Source: Mactromeris polynyma
Taxonomy: Eukaryota > Mollusca > Bivalvia > Venerida > Mactridae
Assembly: GCA_032209605.1 (NCBI GenBank)
Contig: JASFXZ010000027.1
Coordinates: 6,467,372-6,531,371 of the forward strand
Reading direction: 5' to 3'
DNA: 64,000 nt
Every line of letters starts with the position of its first letter. The stretch's first letter is position 1. The translations under genes were made by a program, and so were the position numbers. This document shows, piece after piece, positions 1,310 to 54,850 of this stretch. Under the pieces are notes generated by a model. That model saw nothing but the letters and a program-made list of their open reading frames with translations. It was not told the origin of the DNA and did not search any database.

Positions 1310-2331
1310 TTGAGTGACCGCCATGTTTTCACTACCGACACTACGTGTCCAAAACCAGAGAGCGTGACTAATACACATTTAGGCACAGACTTTTATAATA
1401 ACTCATATTCTTATGTATCGAGTGTTATGAATCCAAACACATCTCCCATTATGTATTTTGGACAGCAAGTTCCGTATGGATACAATCCGCAAACGCCAGG
1501 TATTTTTGCAGCTTCTACGCCGGTGACCGGACCAGAGGGCAACACACCCCCTCCATGGGCTGTTGAAATTATCATGGGTATTAAATCAGTTATTCCGAAG
1601 ATCGACAAAATAGATCAATCCCTAAATACAATCAATCGGAAAATATCTGAATTTGACAATAGAATGAGTGCAGTTGAGACCAAAGTCAATGACATTGAGA
1701 AATCGTGCATTTTTATCAGCGAAGAAAATGACGCGCGAAAATCAGAGTTTACTCAAATGCAACATCAAGTAAAAAATCTCGATACTTTGTGTAAAATGCC
1801 GAAGCAGCAATCAAATCATTTACAATCGATGCAGAAAAATCCAAAGATGAACTTTTGGATATAAAATATCTTTCGATGAGGGAGAATCTCATCTTCTACG
1901 GTATACCAGAGAACCCGGCCGGAAATACTGAAAATTGTAACGATCTTGTCAAAGACCTGATACAAACACACTTAGAACTTGATACTGACAATATGATTCT
2001 CGACCGTGCGCATCGCCTGGGTGCAAAAGCAGCAGGAAAGGTACGACCAATCGTGGTTAAATTCCACAACTACAATTCAAGAGAGACGGTGCGAGTTAAG
2101 TCGTTCGAGCCGGATGTTAAAACCGCTCTCAAAAACAACGACCCTGGAATCGGGATACAGTCACCACAAGAGTATAGCGACGCCCGGAAAGCGTTCTACC
2201 CACTAGTGAAGAAAGCCGAGGAGCTTGAAAAGACAGTACGAATCGTAGGAAACAAACTGTACATTAACAGAACTCTTACAAAAAAGTTTGTAAACGGCAA
2301 AATATGTGCCCCTTTTAACAGCAGTGCTTAG
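1310..2331 (+). pseudogene. LINE ORF1 (nucleic-acid-binding protein), frameshifted
   Basis: Two overlapping open frames make one ORF1. The first (1310-1864) has a polar, proline- and tyrosine-rich N-terminus and then a heptad-like coiled coil from about residue 85 on (IDKIDQSLNTINRKISEF). The second (1855-2331) carries an RRM-like segment starting RENLIFYGIPE, with a basic DRAHRLG motif, and a C-terminal domain with the DARKAFYPLVKKAEEL helix, as in L1-type ORF1p (Transposase_22 family). The frames are separated by what looks like a single-base deletion near 1795. Such proteins trimerise and coat the element RNA; here the break prevents this. Confidence 0.8.
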
Positions 2332-2360
2332 GACAGTCAAGAGAGGTCGGATCATAAAAG

Positions 2361-5300
2361 TTAAGAATTTTATCTTGGAATAAAAATGGCCTTTCCAGGA
2401 AAATTTTAGACAGTGAGTTTATAGATATAATTAATCAATATGACATTCTTTTCTTATCGGAAACATGGATTTCAAAACATAATTGTTTAAATTTAGACAT
2501 TGATAATTATCATTGTGAACATATAACTGGAAATAAGGCACGTAATACGAAGAAAGGCCGCTATAGCGGTGGTTTATCAGTATATTATCATCATTCATTA
2601 CGTAAATATTTTGAAATTGTTGAAAAAAACCAATATGGTATATTTTGGATAAAGTTATCGAAAGATCTATTTAACTTTAACGAAGATGCTTATATTTGTA
2701 ATACATATATCCCTCCAATCAATTCAAAAGTAAATGATCAGTTTGACTTTTTTGATGAAATACAACTAGGGTTTGAGAAATATTGTACGCTTGGTAAATG
2801 CTTTGCGTTAGGTGATTTTAATAGTAGGAGTTCTAATATCAATGATTTTCTTCCATTTGACAGATGTATTGACAATGACAATCACCTGTCAGATTTTGTA
2901 AACATTACACCACGTGCTTCTAAATATCACGTGCTCGATACGTATGGTAAACGTCTAATTGAGCTCTGCCAATCCACGTCCTTTATTATTGGTAATGGTC
3001 GACTGCACAGCGATCGCGGTGTAGGCAATTATACTTTTCATTCATCGAATGGAATGTCGGTAGTGGATTATTTACTATTAAAACCAGAGGATATTGACCT
3101 CGTTACGCACTTTCAAATACTAGATCCGAATGAGTTCTCAGATCATTCCGGAATATTTTTTACTCTTGATAAAAAAGACACACAAAATGTAAATTTAAAT
3201 GATAATTATGATAATAGCAACAACCAAAAACACATTAAATGGGATTCATCTAAAGTTGATGAACTGAATTATTTAGTTTCCTTACATAGTGAACAATTAT
3301 TAACGCTCATTGAAAGAATAAATTCTAACAATGATATTGATAATATTACAAATTAATTTATACAGATAATGCAAGACTCTGCTTCTTGTATGATAACAGA
3401 AAACAAGACAAAAACAAACAGAACATCTCACCCAAATAAAAAACCGTGGTTTAACGCAGACTGTTATAATGCCAGGACCAATTTTAAGAAAGCGAGAAAT
3501 AAATTTGTTCGTAATAAGGCTTGTGCCAATTTATGCTGTGAATATATTGTAGCGAAAACAAATTATAATAAAACGAAACGAATAAATAAGTATAATTACA
3601 ATGTAAAAGAAAAAGAAATATTAGCTAATTTAAGTAAATCTAAACCTAAAGAGTTTTGGAAAAAGGTAAAGCACCAGTATAAGAAGCGTACACAGACTGC
3701 TGAAAATCTCAATGTGTCCAATCTGTATGGTCATTTCAAAACATTATATAGTACCAACAGCGATGACAATAACTTTAACTTTCGAGAAAATATCAATGAT
3801 GAAGATCTCGATCAAGAAATTACTCTATCAGAGTTAAAAAATGCTGTATTCTCCCAAAATAACAATAAAAGTAGTGGCTTAGACAATATAACCGCAGAGA
3901 TATATAAGAGTACATTTACACATATATCAAATTTCCTCTTAAAATTGTATAATCATATCTTCATGTCCGTGAAGTACCCAAAATTCTTTGGGGAAGGAAT
4001 TATAGTTCCTATATTTAAAGGCGGGGATATTGAAGACCCAACGAAATATAGGGGAATAACACTCATTAATATTCTATCAAAGATCTATTCACAAATATTG
4101 TTAAATAGGCTAACAAAATGGAGCAGTAACAATGACAAAATCATTGAAAACCAATTTGGCTTTCAAAAAGGGAAGTCAACAATGGACTGTATATACATTC
4201 TACATTCCGTCATAGCAAAAACACTTTCTTTAAAAAATAAATTATATTGTTGTTTCATAGACTTTGAAAAGTGCTTCAATACAATAACGATATCACATTT
4301 TTTCTATAAATTAATAACTGAAAATGTTAGTACTCGTTTTGTAAAAGCTATACAGACAATGTATAAGCTGTCAAGGCGTGTGTACGATATAAAGCAAGCT
4401 TGTCTCCATCTTTTATATCAAATATAGGCATAAAGCAGGGGGACCCGAGCTCCAGTTTAATGTTTTTATTTTTTGTCAATGATATTTGATCTAATATCAA
4501 TCACAATATAGACTGCAGTATAAACGATGTCGAATTATTCCTACTGTTATTTGCTGATGATGCAGTTATTTTTGCCCAGACACCCGATGCATTACAGTCA
4601 ATGCTTAATGACCTTAACGTCTACTGTGACCAATGGGATTTAAAAGTAAATACAGCAAAATCTAAAGTAATCATATTTGAAAAAGGGAGAAAACCAAGTA
4701 TAACTTTACACTCGATAATACAAATCTAGAAATAGTTGAATCCTTTAGATATTTGGGTATAACCTTGTTCAAGAATAGCAACTGGAGTCGGACTCAAAAA
4801 CATATTGCACAACACTCCCTATATGCATTACACACTTTGTTTATTGTCTATAATCAATTAGACCTTAACATTAAAGAAAAAACTAAACTGTTCGATAGCC
4901 TAATTTGATCAATTCTAAATTATGGCTCAGAAATTTTCGGATACCATTCAGCAAAAGATATTGAGTTAATTCATTGTAAATTTATGAGAAAAATACTAAA
5001 TGTTAGAAAAAGTACCAACCTCTCAGCACTATATGGTGAATTGGGCAGGCACCCAATGGTAGTAGAACGTAAAATACGTTTAATAAATTATTGGATAAGA
5101 ATATTAAAATCAAATAATAACTCACTTTTAAATAAAATATATATAATGTTAAAACATGACGTTGGTAACAATAATACATACAATGGACTGAATTGGGCCT
5201 TTCATGTTAAAAATATATTGGATGAAATTGGTATGTCTGATAACTGGTACTCACAAGATATACAGACCATCTCAATTCATATCATAAAACAAAGAATCAT

Positions 5301-5733
5301 CGATATATATAAACAAACATGGAATGCAGATATTAACGAATCAAACAGATTAGAAACATACAGCTGGTACAAAAATGAACTTAATCAAGAAATCTATCTC
5401 GATGCAATACAAACAAATAAATTTAGAATAGCACTCACAAAATTTCGAGTTTCTTCACATGACTTATTGATTGAAACAGGAAGACACCACAACATACCAA
5501 GAACCGATATAATTTGTACGTATTGTAACATGAATATTGTTAAAAATGAATACCATTTCCTCTTGGTCTGTCCCAAATATAATGCATTACGACAAAGCTA
5601 TTTCAAATCTTATTTTTGCCATTGGCCTACGAAACAAAAGTTTATTACATTAATGTCATCGAACTGTAAAAAGAATATACAAAATGTTAGTAAATATATA
5701 TACCATGCTTTTCTGCTAAGATCAAGATCATAA
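2361..5733 (+). pseudogene. LINE ORF2 (endonuclease-reverse transcriptase), broken
   Basis: The frame opens near 2361 without an early ATG. The endonuclease spans about 2361-3180 with LSWNKNGL, LSETW, GDFNSR, and the catalytic SDHSGIF near 3139. A TAA at 3354 interrupts it, but the same frame continues at 3369 into the reverse transcriptase: PIFKGGDIEDPTKYRGITL near 4010, NQFGFQKGKSTMD near 4149, FIDFEKCFNT near 4255. A frameshift near 4390 moves the GIKQGDP segment to another frame, and FADDAVIF lies near 4551 (FADD in place of YADD). The C-terminal part (4984-5733) ends with a CTYC...EYHFLLVC Cys/His motif. There is another in-frame stop near 4906. It would nick target DNA and reverse-transcribe element RNA if intact. 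Confidence 0.85.
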
Positions 5734-7821: not shown

Positions 7822-8060
7822 AGCTATTTTTGGCCTATTAAGGCCAGTTGTCTTGACTTGTCCTGTGATCTTTTCCATCCATTAATTCCCACCTCCCCTT
7901 CCCTTACAGTCCACTTTGATTCTCCTAGTCATTCCTTGTGTGTACCGTTTGACCTCCTTTAGTACCTTATGTTTTGTGGATTGTTGTTTTTTCCGGAGAT
8001 CTGCGTGGGGAGGCATTGTCTTATGTATGTGGCTTTCCCTGTAGTTACGTATTCTCCTTC
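7822..8060 (+). repeat. Dispersed repeat family X, copy 1
   Basis: The copy starts GGCCTATTAAGGCCAG and carries the family core (TTATGTTTTGTGGATTGTTG, then a GGGGAGGCATTGTCTTATG box) ending near 'ttctcc'. The same order of blocks recurs at 23340, 30005 (reverse), 33340, 39735, 46490, 52258 and 54763. I see no A/B boxes, open frame or terminal inverted repeats. It interrupts the second LINE after the FIDFTKA motif. Confidence 0.75.
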
Positions 8061-8849
8061 TTTTATTACATTTATTTACGGATTACTTATTTGAAATAAT
8101 TTGTTGTAGTACTGATATACATGTTGTGTTAATGTAATATTTTTGTATTTGGTGATGGATTGATGTGTTCTTTATTATCAACATTATATTATGTATATAC
8201 TAGGCTCTAAGTCCCTTTCTTATCCTACATTTAGTTTCGGTAGGACATAGTCATAAGCGAATTTAGTTTGCCTCTTCATGTTCAATATCAGTCATGAAGT
8301 TTTACATACATGTATTTGTTAGAAGGTTATTGTTGTATTTTGTTTGTGACTGTGTATTTATAAATTGTTTGTGTGTTTGTGACTGTTTATACTGTCTACC
8401 TGTTTATAATGTTTACTATGTATGTTATAGTCGCATGGGTTTATGACCTTCTCGTTTTGGAAAAATAAAACTTGTCAAATAAAACTTTATACACAAAGTA
8501 GATTTGCTATAATTATCGATAAAACCGTATGTTCTTTCTTTCTCTTATTCAGGTTGGACATATGGGTCATTTGTGATACGTGGACATACGAGAGATGAAA
8601 TCTGATGAAACGTCGGATAGGATAAAAAGATGGACACGGTTCGTCAACGAAGAGAAACAAGTTACAGTTTACATGAACCTTAAACCACGCGACAGATACG
8701 TGACTGAGACGTGAACAAAACTAGTTAACGACTTATAAAAATAAGGATTAAAACGTAGATGATAACATTTCGTCTGTTTGAATTGTATGCCTAAGCGGTT
8801 ATATTGTACGTATATGACAATCTCAAAACATTTTATTTATTACGTTGAT

Positions 8850-10844: not shown

Positions 10845-11790
10845 AAACTTATCAAAAGCAAATAAGGAATGAATTAGTAGCAAATAAGTAACAGGGTATC
10901 AGTCAAGCACAAAAACTGGAACATATGCGCTAACAATGGTTATTTCCACCCTACGAGAACAGAACTAACACCGGAGACAAAAGACTAAAGGAAAAGAAAG
11001 CATTTACAAGGTGCAACGTATAAAAAGCGAATTAGGAACGAATAAGTAGCGAATAAGTAACAGGGTATCAGTCGAGCGCGCAAAAACTGGTACATATGCG
11101 ATAACAAGGTTTTTTTCAACTCTACAAACCTAGAACTAACACCAGAGACATGAAAAGAAATCATTTAAAAGATGCAATGTACAAAAGGCGAATAGGGAAC
11201 GAATAAGTAACGAATAGGTAACAGGGTATCAGTCGAGTGCAGAAATTGGTACATATGCACTAACAAGGTTTTTTCATATCTACAAACCTAGAACTAACAC
11301 CAGAGATAGAAAAGAAATCATTTAAAAGATGCAATGTAGAAAAAGCGAATAGGGAACGAATAAGTAACGAATAGGTAACAGGGTATCAGTCGAGCGCAGA
11401 AACTGGTACATATGCGCTAACAAGGTTTTTGCAACTCTACAAACCTAGAACTAACACCAGGGACATGAAAATAAATCATTTAAAATATGCAATGTAGAAA
11501 AGGCGAATAGGGAACGAATAAGTAACGAATAGGTAACAGGGTATCAGTCAAGCGCAGAAACTGGTACATATGCGCTAACAAGGTTTCATCATCTCTACAA
11601 ACCTCGAACTAACACCAGAGACCTGAAATGAACTTATTCGAAAGGGTCAATGTAGAAAAAGCGAATAGGGATCGAATAAGTAACGAATAGGTAACAGGGT
11701 ATCAGTCGAGCGCAGAATTGGTACATATGCACTAACAAGGTTTTTTTCATATCTACAAACCTAGAACTAACACCAGAGACCTGAAAAAAG
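10845..11790. repeat. 158-bp satellite array, six units
   Basis: The box acagggtatcagt recurs at 10891, 11060, 11221, 11379, 11536 and 11694, giving unit lengths of 169, 161, 158, 157 and 158 bp. Units also share 'ctggtacatatgc', 'aacaaggttt' and 'aactaacaccagagac'. The first unit is the most divergent and longest, the later ones are homogenised. No open frame crosses it. Confidence 0.9.
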
Positions 11791-13906: not shown

Positions 13907-16900
13907 TTATAATATCGTTGACGATGTGCCACGGGATTTGCCATTATTGTCCGAATGATTTGCATTTGGTTCCTTCATGTGTGTTCGTCCAAAGAGCTCA
14001 CGGAACATTTCCATGACCCTACGGTTCAACACAAATGAAACCATAATGAACATTCCTTGTCCGGCATTTAGAACAGTGAAGATATAAGAAAGAGCAGAAT
14101 AATTCATCCAAATGTACAGAAACCCAAATATCCAACTTACTCCTGTTAGCGTGGCAAGTTTTGCAAAGATAACCAAATCATTGCGTTCATGCTTGACACT
14201 TTTACGAAGCCCAGAGGATTTTGTAACCCTACATACCACACACAAAAACAGACTTAAATTGGCACAAACAACCAGAAAAGTTGGCGCCGCAAATGTTATT
14301 AAAATCCTTTGTCGTGATGTAATGTAGCAGTACTTGCCACCATAACCAAGACCGTTAGATTCCAGTACTGAGATAAGAACATTTAGACCAACGAAGATCA
14401 TAGATAATACTAGAACGTAAACATGGTACGAAACACATTTCTTCACGTCAAATCGTTGAGAAGGTAGTTGGGAACGGGTCAGTGTGACGTAAATGTGATA
14501 TGTGCAGACATTCATCCAAAATACGACACACAACCAGCTAAAATGGATGATCAAACCAATTGTTTTACATACCGTGGAATACTGTTCAAAAGGACCAATG
14601 GTTCCAACAAGAAGCATTATTTGTGCCAAAAGTAAAGCCACAGATAGAGACAGGTTATTTTGTCCAGGAAGTGATTTGTGAAGCTTCGGGAATATTGAAA
14701 ATGTAATGATAGTAACCAATAGCGAGACAATGGACATACTACTGCACACAATAGACACAATCATTTCAGCATCCAGGGACCTCGAAGGTAAAAGATGCTG
14801 AACCAATTCTTCATATTGTTCCAAACACATCATGATATTTTGGTCATCGGTGAAATAAAAAGTACCCCGATCAATCTTCAGTTCATCCACAAAAATACCG
14901 TCATCGATGCTCGTCCATTTTATATCGTTACTAGATACATGTACCTTCGGGCATGATGCATAATTTAGAACAGGAATTTCCTTATCGCTCTCCATGCATC
15001 GACCAACTGAAATATCTGCTGAGTTGGGAATAATCATAAAACCATCAAGATCTGGAAATGCAAATTGAGACAGTATTTCAAGCCTTTCACTGGCGTACTT
15101 ATTATATAATAAACCACGAATTTTCCGTGTGGTATGGACAAGTTCTATCAAGTTAAACTGTCGTGTATCAAATTGTGTAAACACTATTTGAAATTCAAGC
15201 GGCACGTCATTCATTCCGTCAATTTGGAGAGTATAATGTCGCATTGCCAGAATATTATCAACGACCAGATTTGGACTTTGTAATCCTACCATTTTTGACA
15301 ACAACAATTTGATTCTGATATCAACATATGATAAACGTAATGAATTAGTGTTGATAGTATATCTTTGGGAATATATCATATCCGTTTTAAAAGCCATTTC
15401 TATAAAGCAGTATTGAAATCGTTTATCAACGAAATTAAATGCTTCACTTATTCCTTTAAACAAGTCACGTTCTACTGCTAATATTTCTTCTACAGTCGCA
15501 GCTGCCTTCGGCAGTAGTCGCATATCGACCACATACATCATATTTGACGTTAGTCCTTTAAATGTAGGGACGCATGACCCCCTGTGATAGTAAGTGTTTT
15601 CTGGGCATGAAATAGTCTTACATTGCTCCTGAAAAGAATAAGAACAAAAATCTATAAGTTCATATGCAACTATATTATGAAATTTTGAAAAACAAATGTC
15701 TTTATTTGACTAATTTCGCTCTCCGACTTAAAGATATACGTTGATGTAACGGTTGTGATTGATGTATATATAACATCAATCGTTCATCATTTGATTTATC
15801 TGCCCTTAAAACTAAAATATATTCCGTATACATGCATTGAAAGTGTCACTGTATGTTTTATCCAATTATCACAAATCATTATATCCGCATTTCAAAGGAC
15901 ATGAAATTTGAAATTAGATCTCGCCCAGGCTTCTGACTTGTATGTGGCATACGTGTGGTCTGCAAATGAAACTAATTGGGCAAGGACAGTCTATGGTCCT
16001 GTGTAACAGGATGCAAAATTTCGTTGTTCAAAGTAAAGAGTTTCACAAAGATAGCAAACAATTTGATTTCCAGCTTGTTAAGATTATCACGTTAATTGCA
16101 ATGTATACCTGTCAGGAAAGTGACCCGCCCCCTAGCAGCCATGTTTCTTTAGCGAATCACAAAATTAAACAATCTTGGTAAAGGGTTGCCTAAGGAATTA
16201 TTTCAAAATTGGGAATATCCAAAAGATATAAGAAATAAGTTGTCTTGTGTGTCATAATTTGTATGTAACCTGAATAAAAACATTTCGATCCTGAAATGAT
16301 TGCTATTTTTCTTTTTACTAGTACTGGTGATTTTTCGGCTTTGTTAAATAGTAATTGCATTTCTAACATCATGATATGAGAAATATATTAACCTCTATGG
16401 ATTGATTGTAACATTTCGCATGACATAATTATATTCTTCGTGTCACCCTCTCCATAAGTATGCAACATGTATATAAAACATCAAATATCATTATTTCAGC
16501 ACTCCACATCTACTTGCAAATTAACAAAAGTATATATGTTCTGTATACACTTAAAACTAAAAATGATATTCATAAAGTCCCCATTTCATGTCGGTGCATT
16601 TGTGTTGGAATTCGTGGGTACTTAACTGTACAAAATTACATTATCGTCTGTAATATCAGCAAAATCTTGACCACTTGATGATAATTAATTATGTGTATTG
16701 AAATAATAAATAACCTTTTAAAGGATTGTTGCAAGGTTGTTTGATGATACATCAATTAACCATGGGAGTGTCACTTGGTGGGTGTCGTGCGATAGAAGTT
16801 ATAACCACCACAACATTATTGGCCGATTTTTCAACTCTAACATTAACTCAGACTTAAACCAGTAATAGTTAAGCAATGGCTCAACCCATGTTCTAACAGC

Positions 16901-20250: not shown

Positions 20251-20259
20251 TAAATTCTT
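20251..20259. repeat. Target-site duplication, left (TAAATTCTT)
   Basis: A 9-bp direct repeat identical to 22723-22731, immediately outside the fold-back element. Confidence 0.85.
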
Positions 20260-22722
20260 AGGTCTGTGCAGTTGGCTGTTAGTTGTTAGTTGTTAGTTGT
20301 TAATTCAGATGTTCGTTCCGGAATACACAGCTATTAGATGTTAGTTCAGATGTTTATTCGAAAAAACATAGCCAGAAGTTAGATGTGAGTTCGGATATGA
20401 TGGAATGAATACACAGCTGTTAGTTGTTTGTTCAAATGTTTATTTGCATATGATGAGGCGAATACATAGCTAGTAGTTGTTAGTTCAGATGTTATTCGAA
20501 AAAACATTGCGATAAGTTAGATGTGAATTCGGATATGATGGAATGAATACACAGCTATTAGTTGTAAGTTCAAATGTTTATTCGCATATGATGCGGTGAA
20601 TACACAGCTAGTAGTTGTTAGTTCAGATAATTATTCGAAAAAACATAGGCAGAAGTTAGATGTGAGTTTGGATATGATTGAATGAATACACGGCTATAAG
20701 TTGTTAGTGCAGGTGTTTATTCGCATAAAATTATGATGTAGCGAATACACAGCTATTAGTTGTTAGTTCAGATGTTAATTCGAAAATGCATAGCTAAAAG
20801 TTAGATGTTAGTTCGGATATGATATAGCGAATCCAAAGCTATAAGTTGTTAGTTCAGAAGTTCGACCCCGAATTGTGCTACACCGCTAAATATCGTCCGA
20901 GTTACTCATACATTCTATCAATGAGCAGTGAATCTTCTGCGACGTCTTCATTTATATACCAATGAACTAAGTTGGTGCTTATTGATATGTTATTATTCGC
21001 CATGTTTTAATTCCCCCCAAGTAAAGCAAATAGATTGTTGCATCCAAAGACTTATTCAGCACTCGTTTTCCGCCCATTACTTTCCCAGTCAAAATCATAT
21101 TTCCAGGTGTGTACTTAAAACATTTGACTAGCGTATATAGATCAAGTAATGTCATCTTTCTTGCCGTTTACTAAAATTCACTTATGGAATCAATACGGTT
21201 ATCTTATTAGCGTTCTTCAATCTTTACAACGAACCTGAGTGTGGGTCCGCAACGAACTGAAGGCCATGAGGTCGAAATCAAGTCGGGGCGGGGAATTTCT
21301 TAGCGACAATTTGAACCGTATGTATATTCGTCTCCCAAATCTGAGAAATAATGTGGGGAAATCAGTCAGTCGTTTGCAGTGGGGAAATCCAGTATTGACG
21401 TGTTGGTAAAGCAGGAGCAAGAATTAGATTGACGTACCGTCTATTCTTAGTTCAAATGTCGCTGAAGATGGGGGTAAAACAAAACAAATCAAAAGGTTTC
21501 GTAAATGTTTGATTGAGTTTTAAAACGCCAAATGGCTAACTTGGTTGTTATCTAAACCTCAAAAATTAGTTTCCGGGAGAAAATAATATATAAAAGCGAA
21601 TGCAAGCAAAAAGTGACAAAATAAAAAAAAAATTAAGACAAGGCATTTGTTTTTAGTCAATAGATGATGGTACCCAGAGTTTTATGATAAACAAACACTG
21701 AAATACTGTTTATTACGGTCTTAACTAATATCTGGCTATGAATTCAAACCTTCCATCTGGCTATTAATGTTTGAATTAACATCTGAACTAACAACTGTGA
21801 ATTGGGTAACGAACATCTAAACTAACAACTGATAACTGTGGATTAACTACATCATACACGAACTCAAATCTAACTTCTGAATATGCATTTTCGAAAAAAC
21901 ATCTGAACTAACATCTACTAACTGTGCATTCGCTACATCATGATATTATGCGAATAAACATCTGAACCCACAACTAATAGCTGTGTATTCATTCCATCAT
22001 ATCCGAAATCAAATCTAACTTCTAGCTATGTTTATTCGAATATATTATCTGAACTAACAACTTCAAGCTGTGTATTCGCCTCATCACATGCGAACTCACA
22101 TCTAACCTCTGGCAATGTTTTTTTCAAATAAACATCTGAACTAACAACTACTAGCTGTGTATCCATTCCATCATATGCGAAGTCACATCTAACTTCTGGC
22201 TAAATTCTTTCGAATAAATATCTGAACTAACAACTACTAGCTGTGTAGTCGCTATATCATATGCGAATAACTTTGAACTAACAGCTAATAGCTTTGTATT
22301 TGCTACATCATATCCGAACTCACATCTAACCTCTGGCAATGTTTATTTTCAAATAAACATCTGAACTAACAACTACTAGCTGTGTATTCGCCTCATCATA
22401 TGCGAAGTCACATCTAACTGCTGTCATTGTTTTTTCGAATAAACATCTGAACTAAAAACTACTAGCTGTATATTCGCTACATCATATGCGAATAAACATC
22501 TGAACTCACAACTAATAGCTGTGTATTCATTCCATAATATCCGAATTCACATCTAACTTCTAGCTAATTTTTTTCGAATAAATATCTGAACTAACAACTA
22601 CTAGCTGTGTATTCACCTCATCATATGCGAAAAAAACATCTCAACTAACAACTAATAGCTGTGTATTCGAAAACGAACATCTGAATTAACAACTAACAAC
22701 TAACAGCCAACTTCACAGACCT
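20260..22722. mobile_element. Fold-back transposon with tandem-repeat inverted arms
   Basis: The ends are inverted copies: AGGTCTGTGCAGTTGGCTG at the left, and at the right the reverse complement of AGGTCTGTGAAGTTGGCTG, each followed inward by (TTAGTTG)n. A perfect 9-bp duplication flanks them. The left arm (20260-20870) holds about five units of roughly 115 bp built from 'gttagttcagatgtttattc', 'gaagttagatgtgagttc' and 'gaatacacagctattag'. The right arm (21770-22722) holds the same units in reverse complement. The centre (about 20870-21770) is unrelated and shows no transposase. The 9-bp duplication and long arms fit Foldback or MULE-type elements. It is non-autonomous as seen. Confidence 0.88.
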
Positions 22723-22731
22723 TAAATTCTT
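22723..22731. repeat. Target-site duplication, right (TAAATTCTT)
   Basis: Identical to 20251-20259, directly after the element's terminal ACAGACCT. Confidence 0.85.
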
Positions 22732-23337: not shown

Positions 23338-23528
23338 CTACATCAATGCGGCCTATTGTTGCCAGCTGTCTTGACTTGTCCTGTGCCCCTGTTCCCTTGC
23401 GTAGGAGCCCTTGAGCCTCCTCAAATGCCTTATGTTTTGTGGATTGTTGTTTTCCCGGACGTCTGTGTGGGGAGCATTGTCCTGGCGTTCCCTGTAGCAA
23501 CTTATTTTCTCTCGTTTATGCATTGATC
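23338..23528 (+). repeat. Dispersed repeat family X, copy 2
   Basis: It begins 'ggcctattgttgccagctg' and contains the family core with a one-base loss in the GGGGAGCATTGTC box. It ends at 'ttctctcgttt'. The open frames across it on both strands are repeat-derived. Confidence 0.75.
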
Positions 23529-25012: not shown

Positions 25013-26033
25013 TATTAGTTCAGTGCCCCTGCTGTAAAAAATGTAAATAAAGGGAGAAAATGCACAGAGATGATTTTGGCATAATTGTATTGTTTAATAT
25101 CTGCCGTGAATGGGAAAAAAGTAAAGGAAAATCCTACGGTGCGAAATGCTTTTTTTGGGGTAAAATGTACTAAAAGGTAATCAAAAGTATGAATTTCTGG
25201 AATTTGACTATATCAAAATTAGATTTAGCTATACAAATACCAGAATAACTGTTTTTAATAGACATTATATTGCACCATAACATACCTACAGTAAAGACAC
25301 ACCATATGTTGTGAACGGTGATTTTTGGGGTAAAATGGGGAAAAAATAAACAAATTAAAGTGGGAATTTCTGGAGTTTGTCAATAACTGGACGAAATTTA
25401 GCTATAAAATTACCTAAATAACTGTATTTAACAGATATTAAACTGCTCTACAAGATACCTCAGGTGCAGAATACCATACAATGAGAAAGGTTATTATTTG
25501 GGTAAAATAGTAAAAACTATAAGTGAAAGTGAGAATTTCTGGAATTTCCCAAATATATCTTAGACCAGTGGAAAATTAGGAGGAAAAATATGCACAGAAA
25601 TTGTTTTGATGGATTTGTGTCATATAAAGCACCACATTTAATATACTTAAAGTATAAAACTATCACACATGGGGTAAAATGGTTGAAAATATAAATAAAA
25701 ATGGGAATTTTTGGAATTTGCCTAAAACTATGTCAAATTATGCATTAAAACTACAAGAATTACTGTATTTAATAGACATTATATTACAGTACAAAATACA
25801 TAAAACATAGAAACATTGTTTCGTGTGAAATGTGATTTTTGGGGGCAAAAGTAAAAAACTATGTCAAATTTTGCAACAAAACTACCATAATTATTGCATT
25901 TAATAGATATTACATTACGGTACAAAATAATTAAGTACAGAAACATTGTATCGTGTGAAATGTGATTTTTGGGGTAAAACTAAACAATTGTGAAATGTTG
26001 GAATCGGTTCAATTTCCGTTCATTTTAGCTACA

Positions 26034-26480
26034 TAGATGCAGTTTCCAAGGAGGCCAGAACACGGTCAGAGGAACACGCATTAGTTTGCATATATGAAGG
26101 GGAGTCGGGGCAAAGTTTGAACAGTGTATGTTTTTTTACGTTTGTTGAAAAGGTTGCAATAACATCAATGTGGACCATATGTGGACCAAAAAAAATACCA
26201 CCTATGTCTGATGCATCTATATACCATAGTTTGTGGGTATTTCTAAAATACAGGACTGGAAAGGACATGATGATTTGGACCCGCTAGAATGGGGTTGGGA
26301 ACTACGTGGTAACAACTATATCCAGTGTCAACTGGAAGTGCGCCAGCTCCTGCTCACATAATGAAAGTTGTACGGTGCACTTGTCAAATTGGCTGCCTTA
26401 CAGTAGCATGCAGCTACAAGAATGTTGGATTTTAATGTAGTTCAGCCTGCTTCACATGCAAAGGAGTCAGCTGTGAGATT
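26034..26480 (+). pseudogene. Broken Cys-rich (CXC/tesmin-like) ORF tail
   Basis: Frame 1 gives a recognisable stretch, SKEARTRSEEHALV, then IPPMSDASIYHSLWVFLKY (26040-26250). After a frameshift the stretch LDPLEWGWEL follows (26276). Another shift leads to APAHIMKVVRCTCQIGCLTV, a stop, and SSACFTCKGVSCE (26335-26470). From recollection, this order (a YHS...VY block, 'DPxxWGW', then a CxCx4-5CxxxxCxC...CxxC cluster) matches the C-terminus of proteins repeated many times in aquatic invertebrate genomes. No function is assigned. At least two frameshifts and one stop are present. Confidence 0.55.
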
Positions 26481-27080
26481 GCCATCAGTCCAGATTTGGC
26501 ATTTGACTAAAACATTGTGCATATCTTATGCTGCATTAAGACACCGACATTGCTTCTATAATCAACTAAATACACTGTTTCATGCATGTGAACTTTTTGA
26601 ACCAATATTACATATTTTACAAACTTTAAGTTAAAATGTTTAAGTCAGTTTTATGAAAATATAGTATATGTGCAAATTCACTTTTAGTATAAAATATGAA
26701 ATATCAAAATGTTTCATATTTTGGACTTGTTTAATTGTTTTGTGATCAAAATAAATATGGCTTCCGGAAATCAGCATTTCCATTTATGTTTTCAGCACTT
26801 TATACCTCAAAACCACATTTCTTGTTTGATATGATAGCATAATATTATCATATGTCATATTGAAAGCTAACACGTACCTTATGTCATTTCTGTGACTTTC
26901 ATTGTTTATTTTTTTAATCCAGGTATAGGCAAAATATACCAGAAATTGCAACTTTTGGTTATTGCTTTTTTTATATATTTTTCAAAAAAATATTACATTC
27001 CGCATTATAAACTGTTTCTATGATTTAACGTATTGATTTTGCAATATGACATTAGTTAATAATAACTATTGTGAAAACTA
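26480..27080. other. Non-coding centre of second fold-back element
   Basis: AT-rich. A 70-codon frame (26422-26634) continues past the Cys cluster without further similarity. No transposase motif is visible. Confidence 0.45.
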
Positions 27081-27600
27081 AATAGTTAAAATGAACGGGA
27101 TATTGACAGATTCCAAAAATTCCCATTTTTTTAAAGTTTTATTCCAAAAATAACATTTCACACGATACAATGTATCTATACTTTAGGTATTTTGTACTGC
27201 AATATAATATCTATAAATACAGTATTTCTGGTCGTTTTATTGCAAAATTTGACTTAGTTATTAGCAAATTAGCAAAGTTTTACCCCAAAAATCACATTTC
27301 ACACGGTACAATGTTTCTATACTTTGAGTATTATGTACTGTAATATAATATATATTACATAAAGTAATGCTGGTGGTTTCATTGCAAAATTTTACATAGT
27401 TATTGGCAAATTCCATTTTTTGTTATCTTCTTTTAATTTTACCCCAAAAATCACAATGTTTCTATACTTTAGGTATTTTGTACTGTATGCAATATATCTA
27501 TTAAATACAGTAATTCTGATAATTTTATTGCAAAATTTGATATAGTTATTGGCAAATACCAGAAATTCCCGTTCTTATTTAAATTTTCAACCATTTTACC

Positions 27601-27690
27601 CCAGCCTCGCTCGGGTTTCTGACTTGCAAGTGGTAGAGAGAGATGCGGGCTGCAAATGGAACTAATAGGGGTAAGGACAGTCTCTTGTTG
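27601..27690 (+). repeat. Dispersed repeat fragment (matches 15925-15985)
   Basis: 'ttctgacttgcaagtgg' and 'ctgcaaatggaactaat..gg.aaggacagtct' match the left part of the intronic repeat near 15925. It truncates the right arm of the second fold-back element. Confidence 0.6.
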
Positions 27691-28589: not shown

Positions 28590-29430
28590 TAATATGACGC
28601 CAGGTCAGGTAATACATATGTACATGTATACAATTTGGTAGTAGCAAGGAATATTTTCTCTTTTTTATGTCAAAACTTAATCCACCCTTAGTAATGTATA
28701 GAAGTAAATTTGTTTCGTTTTATCAATAAATGTCATTTTATATTTTATTCATATTTGTCATTATTTTAAATGGTTAAATTCCCTTTCCCTGTGACCATAC
28801 CTAAGATTATTTCTAATGAATAACTGATAAAACATTTCCGGTTGCCTCTACATAAGGTTATTTATTTAAGAGTTTGTGGATAGATTGCATTCTTATGTAA
28901 ATACTATAGTTACTAAGTGCACGCACAGTATATGTTTCTTCGTACTACATTGTGTATGTTATTGTATACGTACAGCTTAATTGATTTTAATGTTTAGTTA
29001 CTGCCTACTTTTCGTTTAAACATGTATGTTGGAAATCAATGACCATATATATGATAAGTGTGAGGATAGCTAGCTGCTTAAGATGTATGATAAGTTCCCC
29101 TATCCCAATGTGCAATTCTTGCACTTAATATAATATATCAAGAAGAACCACCATTGCTCAATGTTGCAAGCAATTGCTTATTGGACCCACAAACGGCAAA
29201 AATCGAGTCTAGTGCACCCGAACGCGAACAAATGTTTCTAAAATTTGTATACAGACAACCTTTTGTCAATATAAAGCTATACATGTGCCGTTGAAGTGGT
29301 AAAATACAGGGAGCGATACCACTATTCATAGAAGAAGAAAATTCGCCGATATCAACAATAAGCTTTGGAAAGTTATGCAAGTTCTAGACGATCAGGTTTA
29401 CTTTGGCACGTATAAACCTCTAAAAGGGAA
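28590..29430. other. Intergenic, no gene recognised
   Basis: AT-rich sequence with no open frame of note and no tandem structure seen. Confidence 0.45.
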
Positions 29431-29550
29431 AAAATAAGACCACACTCGCCGTTCACGTCCATTTTGGACTCATTGGTGCAACAACGCAAGAACCGTTGGA
29501 ACATTTTTAACGCATAGCAAAATGTTGTTGTTCCAATGAGACACAGGCGT
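29431..29550 (-). repeat. Inverted copy of the 11789-11915 repeat
   Basis: The reverse complement reads 'tctcattggaacaacaac..' through 'aaatggacgtgaacgg'. It marks the left edge of duplicated region B. Confidence 0.7.
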
Positions 29551-30004
29551 GTCATACATAATTCAATGGTGCTATTAATGACGCGTGCAACCGATTGAAT
29601 GATAAATCATTCGATACACCCGAGGCACTTAGTAATAGTTATTATCAAAAGCTTTATAATGGAACATCACACAATATTGATGATATTATCGGTAATGCTA
29701 TAATGTCCGTAGATATGATTTCATCTTTCGCAATATTTTATCATCAACATTTTCCCATCCATATTCTGTCTTAATTAATTATATGAAATGTGTAATTATT
29801 TAGTACAATAACTTGATAAACTTCACATCGAATCGAGAGTAAATTAGTTTCCTCGATATTTCGACGTCCATCACCTTCTACTATTTCATATCTATGTAAG
29901 CTGTAGTTGTCTCTGGAAAATGACTTATCAGCCGCATATTATATTATAACAAGTTCTGCATAATTATTAGTTTTACACATGGACGATATTTTCTACTTAT
30001 CAGT

Positions 30005-30155
30005 AACAGAGAGAAAGAAAGTTGCTACAGGGAACGCCACATATATAAGACAGTGCCTCCTGACACAGACCTTCGGGAAAACAACAATCCATTAAATATA
30101 AGGCATTTGAGAGGGCTCAAGAGAACAGGGGCACGAGGAATGGACTGGTAAGGCT
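30005..30155 (-). repeat. Dispersed repeat family X, copy 3 (reverse)
   Basis: The reverse complement has 'ggattgttgttttcccgaag', 'gtgtcaggaggcactgtctt', 'ggcgttccctgtagcaac'. It was inserted into region B after duplication, since block A lacks it at this point. Confidence 0.75.
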
Positions 30156-31604
30156 ACATTATAAAAATTGAATAATTAAGAAATATTGATTTTTTTACGC
30201 ACAACAAGCAATGAATAATACGTCGTCACTCGATGGGTTGAAGAGATGAGCCACAATTCCATTGAATACTCTACAATCGGTCTACAGGTTTGGCCTATCT
30301 GTGTAAAGGTTACGAAGTATTTTTCTATCAATATAATCTCTTGTGGTTGTTATGCAATGCAGAATGACTTTTATTAATTGATACCATCGCATTAACAATG
30401 AATATTTATAACCTTTATAATATCGACAACATTTAGCTCTACGAGTTCTCGGGTGATGTCGTCCACAATGAAGTTTCTTGTAGTCAGACATGCTGACTTT
30501 TTATGATCACCATCAATGTGTATTCAACAATTTTATACAAGATTTAAAATTATTTTAAGGAATATTTGATGCATTTTTCATGAAATTCAACGCGTTTCTC
30601 ACAGTTTAAAAGAGCTTCTGTTGTAGCATTTACGAGCCATGTTTTGTTCACGGTCTATTTCACCAACTTCATCAATATTATAATTTTAAGCGCTCACGGC
30701 CTGGGACTACAGATAAATAAATTGTTGATGTACTTACGTGGTATGTAGATCGAGAGACTTGTTTGTAAACAAATTATCACATTATCTAGTGTGTTTCCCT
30801 ATTATTTCAGTGGTAGTTTTACCATTTGTTTTACTGTGTGCAGACTATAGAAATCTTGTGCATCAGTGATTTTTGGTTATAACATTTTAGAAAATTAATA
30901 GACTACAAATAGTGCCAGAGTGACAACTGTTAACCGTTTTGAAGTTTTGACACTGTCCAATGTAAATATCATTCGTTTATGGAGTGAAACAAAGTTGTAT
31001 AGCAGTCTGGTTGTTACATAACTCCATAGGCATTAACATGATGAACACAAGCGACCTCACCAGGTCCAGATGGAATATAGTCCAGCCATATTTCTCATCA
31101 ATGTTATGCGTCAGTCTGTGCATTCTTCTGCAGAAATGAATCCGTTGAATTTTATAGAAACATATATACAGACAAGAATTGAACTGATCATGTATGCTTT
31201 GCTATTATAGTTAGATTTTTACATGTTTAAACCAATCAAATCTTACATTAACCACCAAGGCAATTTCTCCTCAAACGAACAACGTTTGTAAACCTTGATG
31301 CGGATTGATTAACCTTTCGTGCCGTTTTAAAGATTGTTAAGGTTTAAGATCAAACGGACATGCTTTGAGGGGTCCACTCATGTTCTTCATGCATACACAT
31401 ATTTAGTTCAAAATGAGCCTATTTCATCATGTGCTTGTGTTTTTCTTAAATAGAAAGTGCTAGAGACATCGAAAAAAGGTAGGTGGTACTTCATATGCAT
31501 ACAACCTCCTGTAAATGACGTTGTTTTTTTTGACACAGACAGTAAGAAATACCAATTATTAGATATAATATGGGTGACACAAGATTGCATACTCTGTAAG
31601 CTAT

Positions 31605-33339: not shown

Positions 33340-33490
33340 CATCCCAGTTCCCTTGCGTATGTACCCTTGCACCTGCTCAAATTCCTGATGTTTTATGGAC
33401 TGTTGTTTCCCCGGAGGTCTGTGTGGAGAGGCATTGTCTTATGTATGTGGCTTCCCTGTAGCAACTTAAATTATTCTCTCTTTGTAGAAG
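33340..33490 (+). repeat. Dispersed repeat family X, copy 4
   Basis: Family core with 'ggactgttgtttccccggagg', 'gagaggcattgtcttatg' and 'ttccctgtagcaact'. The 5' part is shortened. A family Y tail follows (33500-33735). Confidence 0.75.
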
Positions 33491-52257: not shown

Positions 52258-52545
52258 TCGGCCTATCGTTGACAGCTGTCTTGATTTGACCTGTGATCCT
52301 TTCCATCCATTAATTTCCCCCCACCCACACACAAGTTTGTCATCTTTGATTCTCCTAGTTATTCCTTATGGTCTGCCAGGCCATTCCTTGCGCCACTGTT
52401 CCCTTGTGTATGTACCATTGAGCCTCCTCAAGTGTCTTATGTTTTATGGATTGTTGTTTTCCCGGTGGTCTGTGCGGGGAGGCACTGTCTTATGTATGTG
52501 GCGTTCCCTGCAGCGACTGTTTCTCTCTTCTATCAAACAGAGTTG
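52258..52545 (+). repeat. Dispersed repeat family X, copy 6 (longest)
   Basis: It begins 'cggcctatcgttgacagctg' and holds the fullest set of blocks: 'tcttgatttgacctgtgatc', 'ttgattctcctagttattcc', 'cttatgttttatggattgtt', 'ggcgttccctgcagcgactg'. Open frames on it are not genes. Confidence 0.75.
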
Positions 52546-54762: not shown

Positions 54763-54850
54763 ATGGATTGTGGTTTTCCCGGAGGTCTGTGTGGGGAGAC
54801 ACTGTCTTATGTATGTGGCGTTCCCTGTAGAAACGTATTCTCTCTCTTTT
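54763..54850 (+). repeat. Dispersed repeat family X, copy 7 (short)
   Basis: Core only: 'ggattgtggttttcccggag', 'gggagacactgtcttatg', 'ggcgttccctgtagaaacg', 'attctctctc'. Confidence 0.7.

Follow-up and report, generated by a model that had tools for sequence, protein, structure and literature searches.

The described transposons closest in plan to the element reported here are Tetris of Drosophila virilis, Tm1 of root-knot nematodes, and Muta1 of Aedes aegypti, with Tetris the closest of the three. Foldback arms containing repeats are also a feature of Galileo and Foldback (FB) of Drosophila; the units and termini of FB differ from those of our element. As described in PMC4079207, Tetris, like our element, is non-autonomous, carries 8-10-bp target-site duplications (TSDs), and has yielded no autonomous copy. 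The two also share terminal inverted repeats (TIRs) composed of a terminal domain, variable tandem repeats, and an inner domain, a variable centre without apparent coding capacity, and the reappearance of a segment of the terminal domain (37 bp in Tetris, ~80%) within the repeat unit (PMC4079207). Compared by description, the Tetris unit is ~220 bp long, versus ~139 bp made up of three ordered monomers here; the same account reports that Tetris repeats also build kb-size satellite-like arrays, suggests a place for Tetris in Mutator, and cites extra transposase-binding sites in the arms of Galileo (PMC4079207). Galileo differs from our element in being described as P-type (PMC3169594). Tm1, as characterised in the latter source, resembles our element in its composite TIRs, variable repeat number, many non-coding copies, and 8-10-bp TSDs (most often 9 bp, in 45 of 53 complete copies, with some copies lacking a TSD); it differs in its ~14-bp repeat, its asymmetric 7-bp outer motifs, and one copy encoding a Phantom-type MULE transposase (PMC3169594). 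Muta1, termed a type 2 Foldback element, and other Aedes aegypti MULEs likewise combine an 8-9-bp TSD with a terminal motif, subterminal tandem repeats, and many derivatives with varied interiors; unlike our element, they have repeats of 9-15 bp, and Muta1, an autonomous element, transposes in yeast (PMC5225508). Rehavkus is described as having a 9-bp TSD, a PHD-finger transposase, and a 3' TIR preceded by a minisatellite (PMC6446971). In bivalves, a mollusc survey found every superfamily that it treated to be represented by one element or more (PMC10294476). A mollusc foldback element was not named in the open-access titles and abstract openings searched; tandem-repeat MITEs of the clam Donax trunculus are the subject of a paper outside that set. 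The element described below is a new family of a known element type, known from flies, mosquitoes, and nematodes. It provides a clear bivalve case in which foldback arms are ordered higher-order repeats and occur in the same genome as a similarly built MULE that carries a transposase frame, so that the origin of satellite-like arrays inside transposon ends can be tested by comparison within one genome.

In this study, we analysed a window of 64,000 nucleotides from Mactromeris polynyma, in which an insertion of 2,463 bp (20260-22722) is flanked on both sides by exact 9-bp copies of TAAATTCTT. The inverted termini, AGGTCTGTG(C/A)AGTTGGCTG, are located at 20260-20278 (+) and 22704-22722 (-), and when the window was searched for this terminal motif with up to three mismatches, only those two matches were found (none in 100 shuffles). 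The 9-mer TAAATTCTT occurs five times in the AT-rich window, versus 2.2 expected, and 6 of 100 shuffles contained five or more. Because the 9-mer is common, its mere presence proves little; what counts is that it exactly abuts both termini. As shown in Table 1, long inverted arms of tandem repeats surround a variable middle, which is the arrangement of a foldback element, and many inverted pairs were detected between the arms (e.g., 239 nt at 85%). The initial annotation, which had proposed a foldback transposon with clear ends, identical abutting 9-bp flanks, and tandem-array arms, was borne out, and the centre that it put at 0.9 kb measures 0.86 kb.

Table 1. Coordinates of the foldback element and its empty counterpart in the window.
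Feature	Position	Strand	Remarks
Left target-site duplication TAAATTCTT	20251..20259	+	Empty counterpart in region B
Left terminal block T (AGGTCTGTGCAGTTGGCTGTTAGTTGTTAG...), element end	20260..20320	+	Same end in relatives
Left arm array	20321..20872	+	Four X(42)-Y(44)-Z(53) sets followed by a single degenerate unit
Non-coding centre, 0.86 kb	20873..21735	+	Common to other copies; remnant of a longer interior
Inner part of terminal repeat	21617..21735	+	Inverted second copy by the other arm in longer relatives, lost here on the left
Right arm array, inverted	21736..22668	-	20 monomers (types X, Y, Z); inner units degenerate
Right terminal block T, other element end	22669..22722	-	
Right target-site duplication TAAATTCTT	22723..22731	+	
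Region B, diverged paralogue of flanks	29401..30600	+	Empty site ~29950-29958

Region B was then compared with the flanks of the insertion. When the window flanks were joined at a single 9-mer, they aligned through the junction with region B, with no large gap there, and the 2.5 kb is therefore an insertion. Region B lacks this insertion and contains, in place of TAAATTCTT, the single site CAAGTTCTG (6 of 9 positions identical). Given that 18 copies of the element differ from their consensus by only 4-8%, whereas regions A and B are 68-70% alike in their matching blocks, the element was inserted after the local duplication had occurred, in agreement with the order of events suggested earlier.

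Each arm begins with a terminal block T (54-61 bp), which is followed by monomers X (~42 bp), Y (44 bp), and Z (53 bp) in a prevailing X-Y-Z order, giving a period of ~139 bp. In the window copy, the left arm contains T and 12 monomers and the right arm T and 20, besides degenerate inner units. The arms had been described as ~115-bp tandem units; the inverted tandem arrays are indeed present, but the unit is the ~139-bp set of three monomers. X and Z have 38 of their first 40 bases in common, and a 20-bp motif, TAGTTGTTA[A/G]TTCAGATGTT, is common to T, X, and Z (T versus X, 19/20). With monomer consensuses derived from the window copy, the T motif scored 35 with X and 32 with Z, compared with a best score of 24 in 1000 shuffles for each; no significant sharing of this motif was found in Y, where 9 of 1000 shuffles scored as high. 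Mapping of the monomers in 43 stretches (L001 and L009-L050) revealed that T, where found, begins the array and that the X-Y-Z order is mostly regular. Arm length ranged from a few monomers to an array of ~4 kb (L026); one stretch (L024) contained no array, and T was absent from several arms. The arm of ~4 kb lends weak support to the suggestion that arm arrays could seed satellites elsewhere. The ordered three-monomer unit is an unusual detail of an otherwise ordinary element. In one stretch (L041; C223 near 37737845), T was observed amid a different copy's array, an arrangement suggestive of insertion of one element into the arm of another.

To place the window copy in its genome (793 Mb, 299 contigs), DNA searches were performed with the element, and at least 290 matches were obtained (40 of 539 candidates scored). 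The copy sample consisted of 24 stretches of 2.2-9.7 kb, mainly top matches, end pieces from 11 more places, and the window copy; shorter cuts of re-fetched places (L002-L008) were left out of all copy sets. Allowing up to four substitutions, the terminal motif gave 43 matches in the 43 stretches, and 42 of these, including the window copy's two, cap an array (the exception is in L012). At 29 positions, counted inward with the A of AGG as the first, the majority base was present in 84-100% of ends, but agreement fell to 35% just outside and was 28-58% over the 30 positions outside the end. Positions 1-19 were selected by the search pattern; positions 20-29, which were not, still reached 84-98%. 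The element thus belongs to a dispersed family in which many relatives share this sharp end. Three family copies (L017, L018, and L019; C235 at 1.05, 1.03, and 1.07 Mb) are only 0.018-0.036 apart, and two of them (L017 and L018) adjoin frames that, read by eye, resemble a leucine-rich-repeat/TIR receptor; these three probably arose when a local duplication took the element with it.

Target-site duplications were assessed in a two-ended set of 10 copies, in which both ends are free of indels, by comparing duplication lengths of 6-12. Exact 9-bp duplications were found in 5 of the 10 (TAAATTCTT, TGCCTCGAC, ATCTTGTAC, ACATATTAC, and TAATAACAC), and imperfect ones in 3 others (8/9, 7/9, and, in a 10-bp register in L012, 8/10), whereas two copies (L010 and L013) had none. 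When 430 mispaired flanks were examined as a control, 3 reached 7/9 and none reached 8/9. In three further copies (L015, L016, and L025), whose second end requires indels and which lie outside the two-ended count, the flanks matched by eye at no more than 4 of 9 positions; with these included, a duplication is present in 8 of 13. The copies lacking a duplication may have arisen by exchange between elements or by deletion. The earlier proposal would have failed had other copies lacked 9-bp duplications or coinciding ends; instead, the ends coincide and 8 of the 10 two-ended copies carry a 9- or 10-bp duplication, combining, as foldback transposons do, precise ends with a TSD. The lengths (9 bp in 7 of 10, 10 bp in one) fall within the 8-10 bp expected of Mutator/MULE elements. 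They also agree with the 9 bp given for Rehavkus; arrays are present here on both sides. The P superfamily has TSDs of 7-8 bp, and a 7- or 8-bp register, as would be Galileo-like, fitted none of the 10 copies.

The interior of the element varies among copies. Six longer copies (L010, L014, L015, L016, L019, and L020) contain an extra 1.0-1.4 kb between the centre and the other arm or inner repeat, and three more (L012, L013, and L027) an extra 0.3-0.7 kb after the centre. Moreover, the final ~119 bp of the centre (positions ~745-863) are repeated, inverted, beside the other arm in 7 of the 18 centre-containing copies (L012, L013, L015, L016, L019, L020, and L028). The window copy has neither the extra interior nor the inverted inner repeat, and we therefore interpret it as a product of internal deletion. 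With respect to coding capacity, no transposase domain was detected in the four frames scanned from the window centre, or when 34 interior frames of the element and its longer copies were compared with Pfam. These 34 frames were a selection from 17 copies, with at most five frames of at least 70 aa per copy; frames in L017, L018, and L021 with the appearance of host genes or simple repeats were left out, as were a few more. One weak reverse-transcriptase match was obtained (E 0.0028), and single matches to ArgoN (0.059), BEN (0.061), and a C5orf34-like domain (0.077) were dismissed as chance-like. Seven further frames also contained no transposase, their matches being RVT_1 at 0.077 (L014), the L020 endonuclease piece described below, and others that were chance-like. 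By reading, frames in L011, L014, and L015 resemble a piece of reverse transcriptase (the L015 frame without an RVT_1 match), and an old LINE fragment in the family ancestor is therefore likely. An endonuclease piece between arm and centre in L020 (4.6e-8) was read as a separate LINE insertion. The window gave nothing at gathering scores against Rfam and no match in a phage collection, and the terminal motif was not found in viral contigs.

MULEs of the same genome were also surveyed. The MULE domain gave at least 108 matches (150 of 204 candidates scored), from which nine loci (L051-L059; 4.4-6.2 kb each), representing best matches or long open frames, were inspected. Neither AGGTCTGTG ends, with five substitutions allowed, nor similarity to the element was found in these nine stretches, a search that would miss any ends located farther out; four gapped partial end matches in L051 and L052, seen when indels were allowed, were set aside as chance. 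Among the matches listed, no MULE lay within 20 kb of a family copy, the nearest being, by eye, ~40 kb away (C231). However, one locus (L054:471-4528; C224:8344970-8349027) proved to be a 4,058-bp element flanked by an exact 9-bp duplication, GGCGCTTGC, which occurs just twice in that stretch. Its termini are GG[A/C]CAGGTTTAAAACGCGGCC, its inverted arms repeat a 184-bp unit in tandem (4.8 and 3.0 copies), and it encodes a frame of 566 aa with Pfam matches to MULE (2.5e-10) and Transposase_mut (1.3e-4). This MULE resembles the window element in its 9-bp duplication, its inverted tandem-array arms, and a terminal inverted repeat external to the arrays, but differs in having unrelated sequence (no blastn match), a 184-bp unit, and a MULE frame. 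A second locus (L059; C168:3740400-3744900) contains a MULE frame (6.4e-8) that has inverted repeats on either side, in which ~21-bp units are arranged in tandem; long inverted arms were not found in the other seven stretches. Given that L054, in the same genome, shares both architecture and duplication length with the window family, a MULE is by analogy the likely mover of that family. The suggestion of a MULE-type element, made at the outset, thus gains support from a same-genome MULE whose arms are inverted arrays and whose 9-bp duplication is exact, but no transposase came from the window family itself.

Divergence among copies was measured for 18 centres, which excluded 7 of the 25 stretches (L023, L025, L026, and L029-L032) for want of a usable centre; in several of those retained, measurement was limited to the best block of the centre. 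The mean pairwise difference was 0.123 (K2P, 153 pairs), and individual centres were 0.043-0.083 from the consensus, in a sample of mostly best matches from which older copies may be missed. The smallest distances (0.018-0.036) were among L017-L019, neighbours on one contig. The family appears to be no longer active. For the X-Y-Z sets, likeness was 0.867 within the same arm, 0.859 between opposite arms, and 0.856 between elements, and homogenisation of the arms within an element was not seen over seven two-armed copies. In two copies, opposite arms were slightly closer to each other than to other elements (L015, 0.882 versus 0.866; L020, 0.877 versus 0.866). Position in the arm had little effect (0.873 versus 0.867; first position, 0.880). 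The nearest set lay in the same element for 22 of 77 sets, 16 of them in L012, which represents a local expansion of repeat sets. These star-like differences suggest that the arrays were near-uniform when the family spread and have decayed separately since, and they speak against continuing exchange between an element's two arms.

We consider it probable that the window element is a non-autonomous, internally deleted foldback-type DNA transposon that was moved by cut-and-paste by a MULE transposase acting in trans. Such a transposase, supplied by a MULE of which no own copy was found, would recognise the terminal block T and the 20-bp motif in X and Z, and the arm arrays would then be iterated putative subterminal binding sites. 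Unequal exchange may lengthen and shorten the arms, which would have been near-uniform at family spread before independent mutational decay set in. A 9-bp TSD also fits Merlin, and the same foldback element could have been moved by something other than a typical MULE, whether Merlin, a P-type transposase as for Galileo, or a Rehavkus-type MULE relative. We regard this as unlikely. The absence of transposase from the frames scanned leaves room for such a mover, but the duplications of Galileo are 7 bp, and a MULE of the same plan (L054) exists in the same genome. Moreover, in a survey based on automatic libraries, Merlin is reported as almost confined to cephalopods, while MULEs occur in all mollusc genomes analysed (PMC10294476). 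Foldback structure does arise in unrelated superfamilies, the transposase of Galileo being P-type (PMC3169594), and Rehavkus, as described, combines 9-bp duplications with a minisatellite before one TIR (PMC6446971).

Two other readings do without a cut-and-paste mover of this kind, and we give each hardly any credence. If a satellite array had been duplicated locally in inverted orientation, without transposition, the flanking 9-mers would have matched by chance; the excess of TAAATTCTT in the window noted above is in its favour, but the sharp ends are common to dispersed places, other copies have duplications of different sequence, and the paralogous site in region B is empty. A Helentron or Helitron with tandem repeats is an equally remote prospect in the face of the long inverted arms, common termini, and 9-bp target duplications found here; Helitrons are not known to make a target duplication. 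What recommends it is that such elements bear satellite-like arrays in the Pacific oyster, as reported in PMC7492417. Returning to the foldback transposon itself, we also raise the doubtful idea that X-Y-Z is a functional higher-order unit, such that fixed-grammar transposase binding would hold the arms in register and transposition would create and disperse satellite-like higher-order repeats. If so, nascent satellites would be seen in arms that reach ~4 kb, as in L026, and chromosomes would be rearranged by exchange between copies such as L010 and L013, which have two ends but no duplications.

Several other features were observed in the window. A second foldback-like arrangement is present at 25152-27603, with ~131-146-bp tandem units at ~25152-26003, inverted at ~27083-27603, around a ~1.1-kb centre. 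A tandem array with a 158-bp unit (~5 copies) is located at 10991-11787, and a dispersed ~100-bp repeat of SINE-like size was found in both orientations at 7938-8066, 23411-23519, 30008-30120, 33347-33481, 52402-52531, and 54764-54850. A LINE with endonuclease and reverse-transcriptase domains extends in several frames over 1795-5733. Finally, a receptor gene at 13907-15709 had as its closest protein, among three matches, one from Mactra antiquata (Venerida), with 53% identity.
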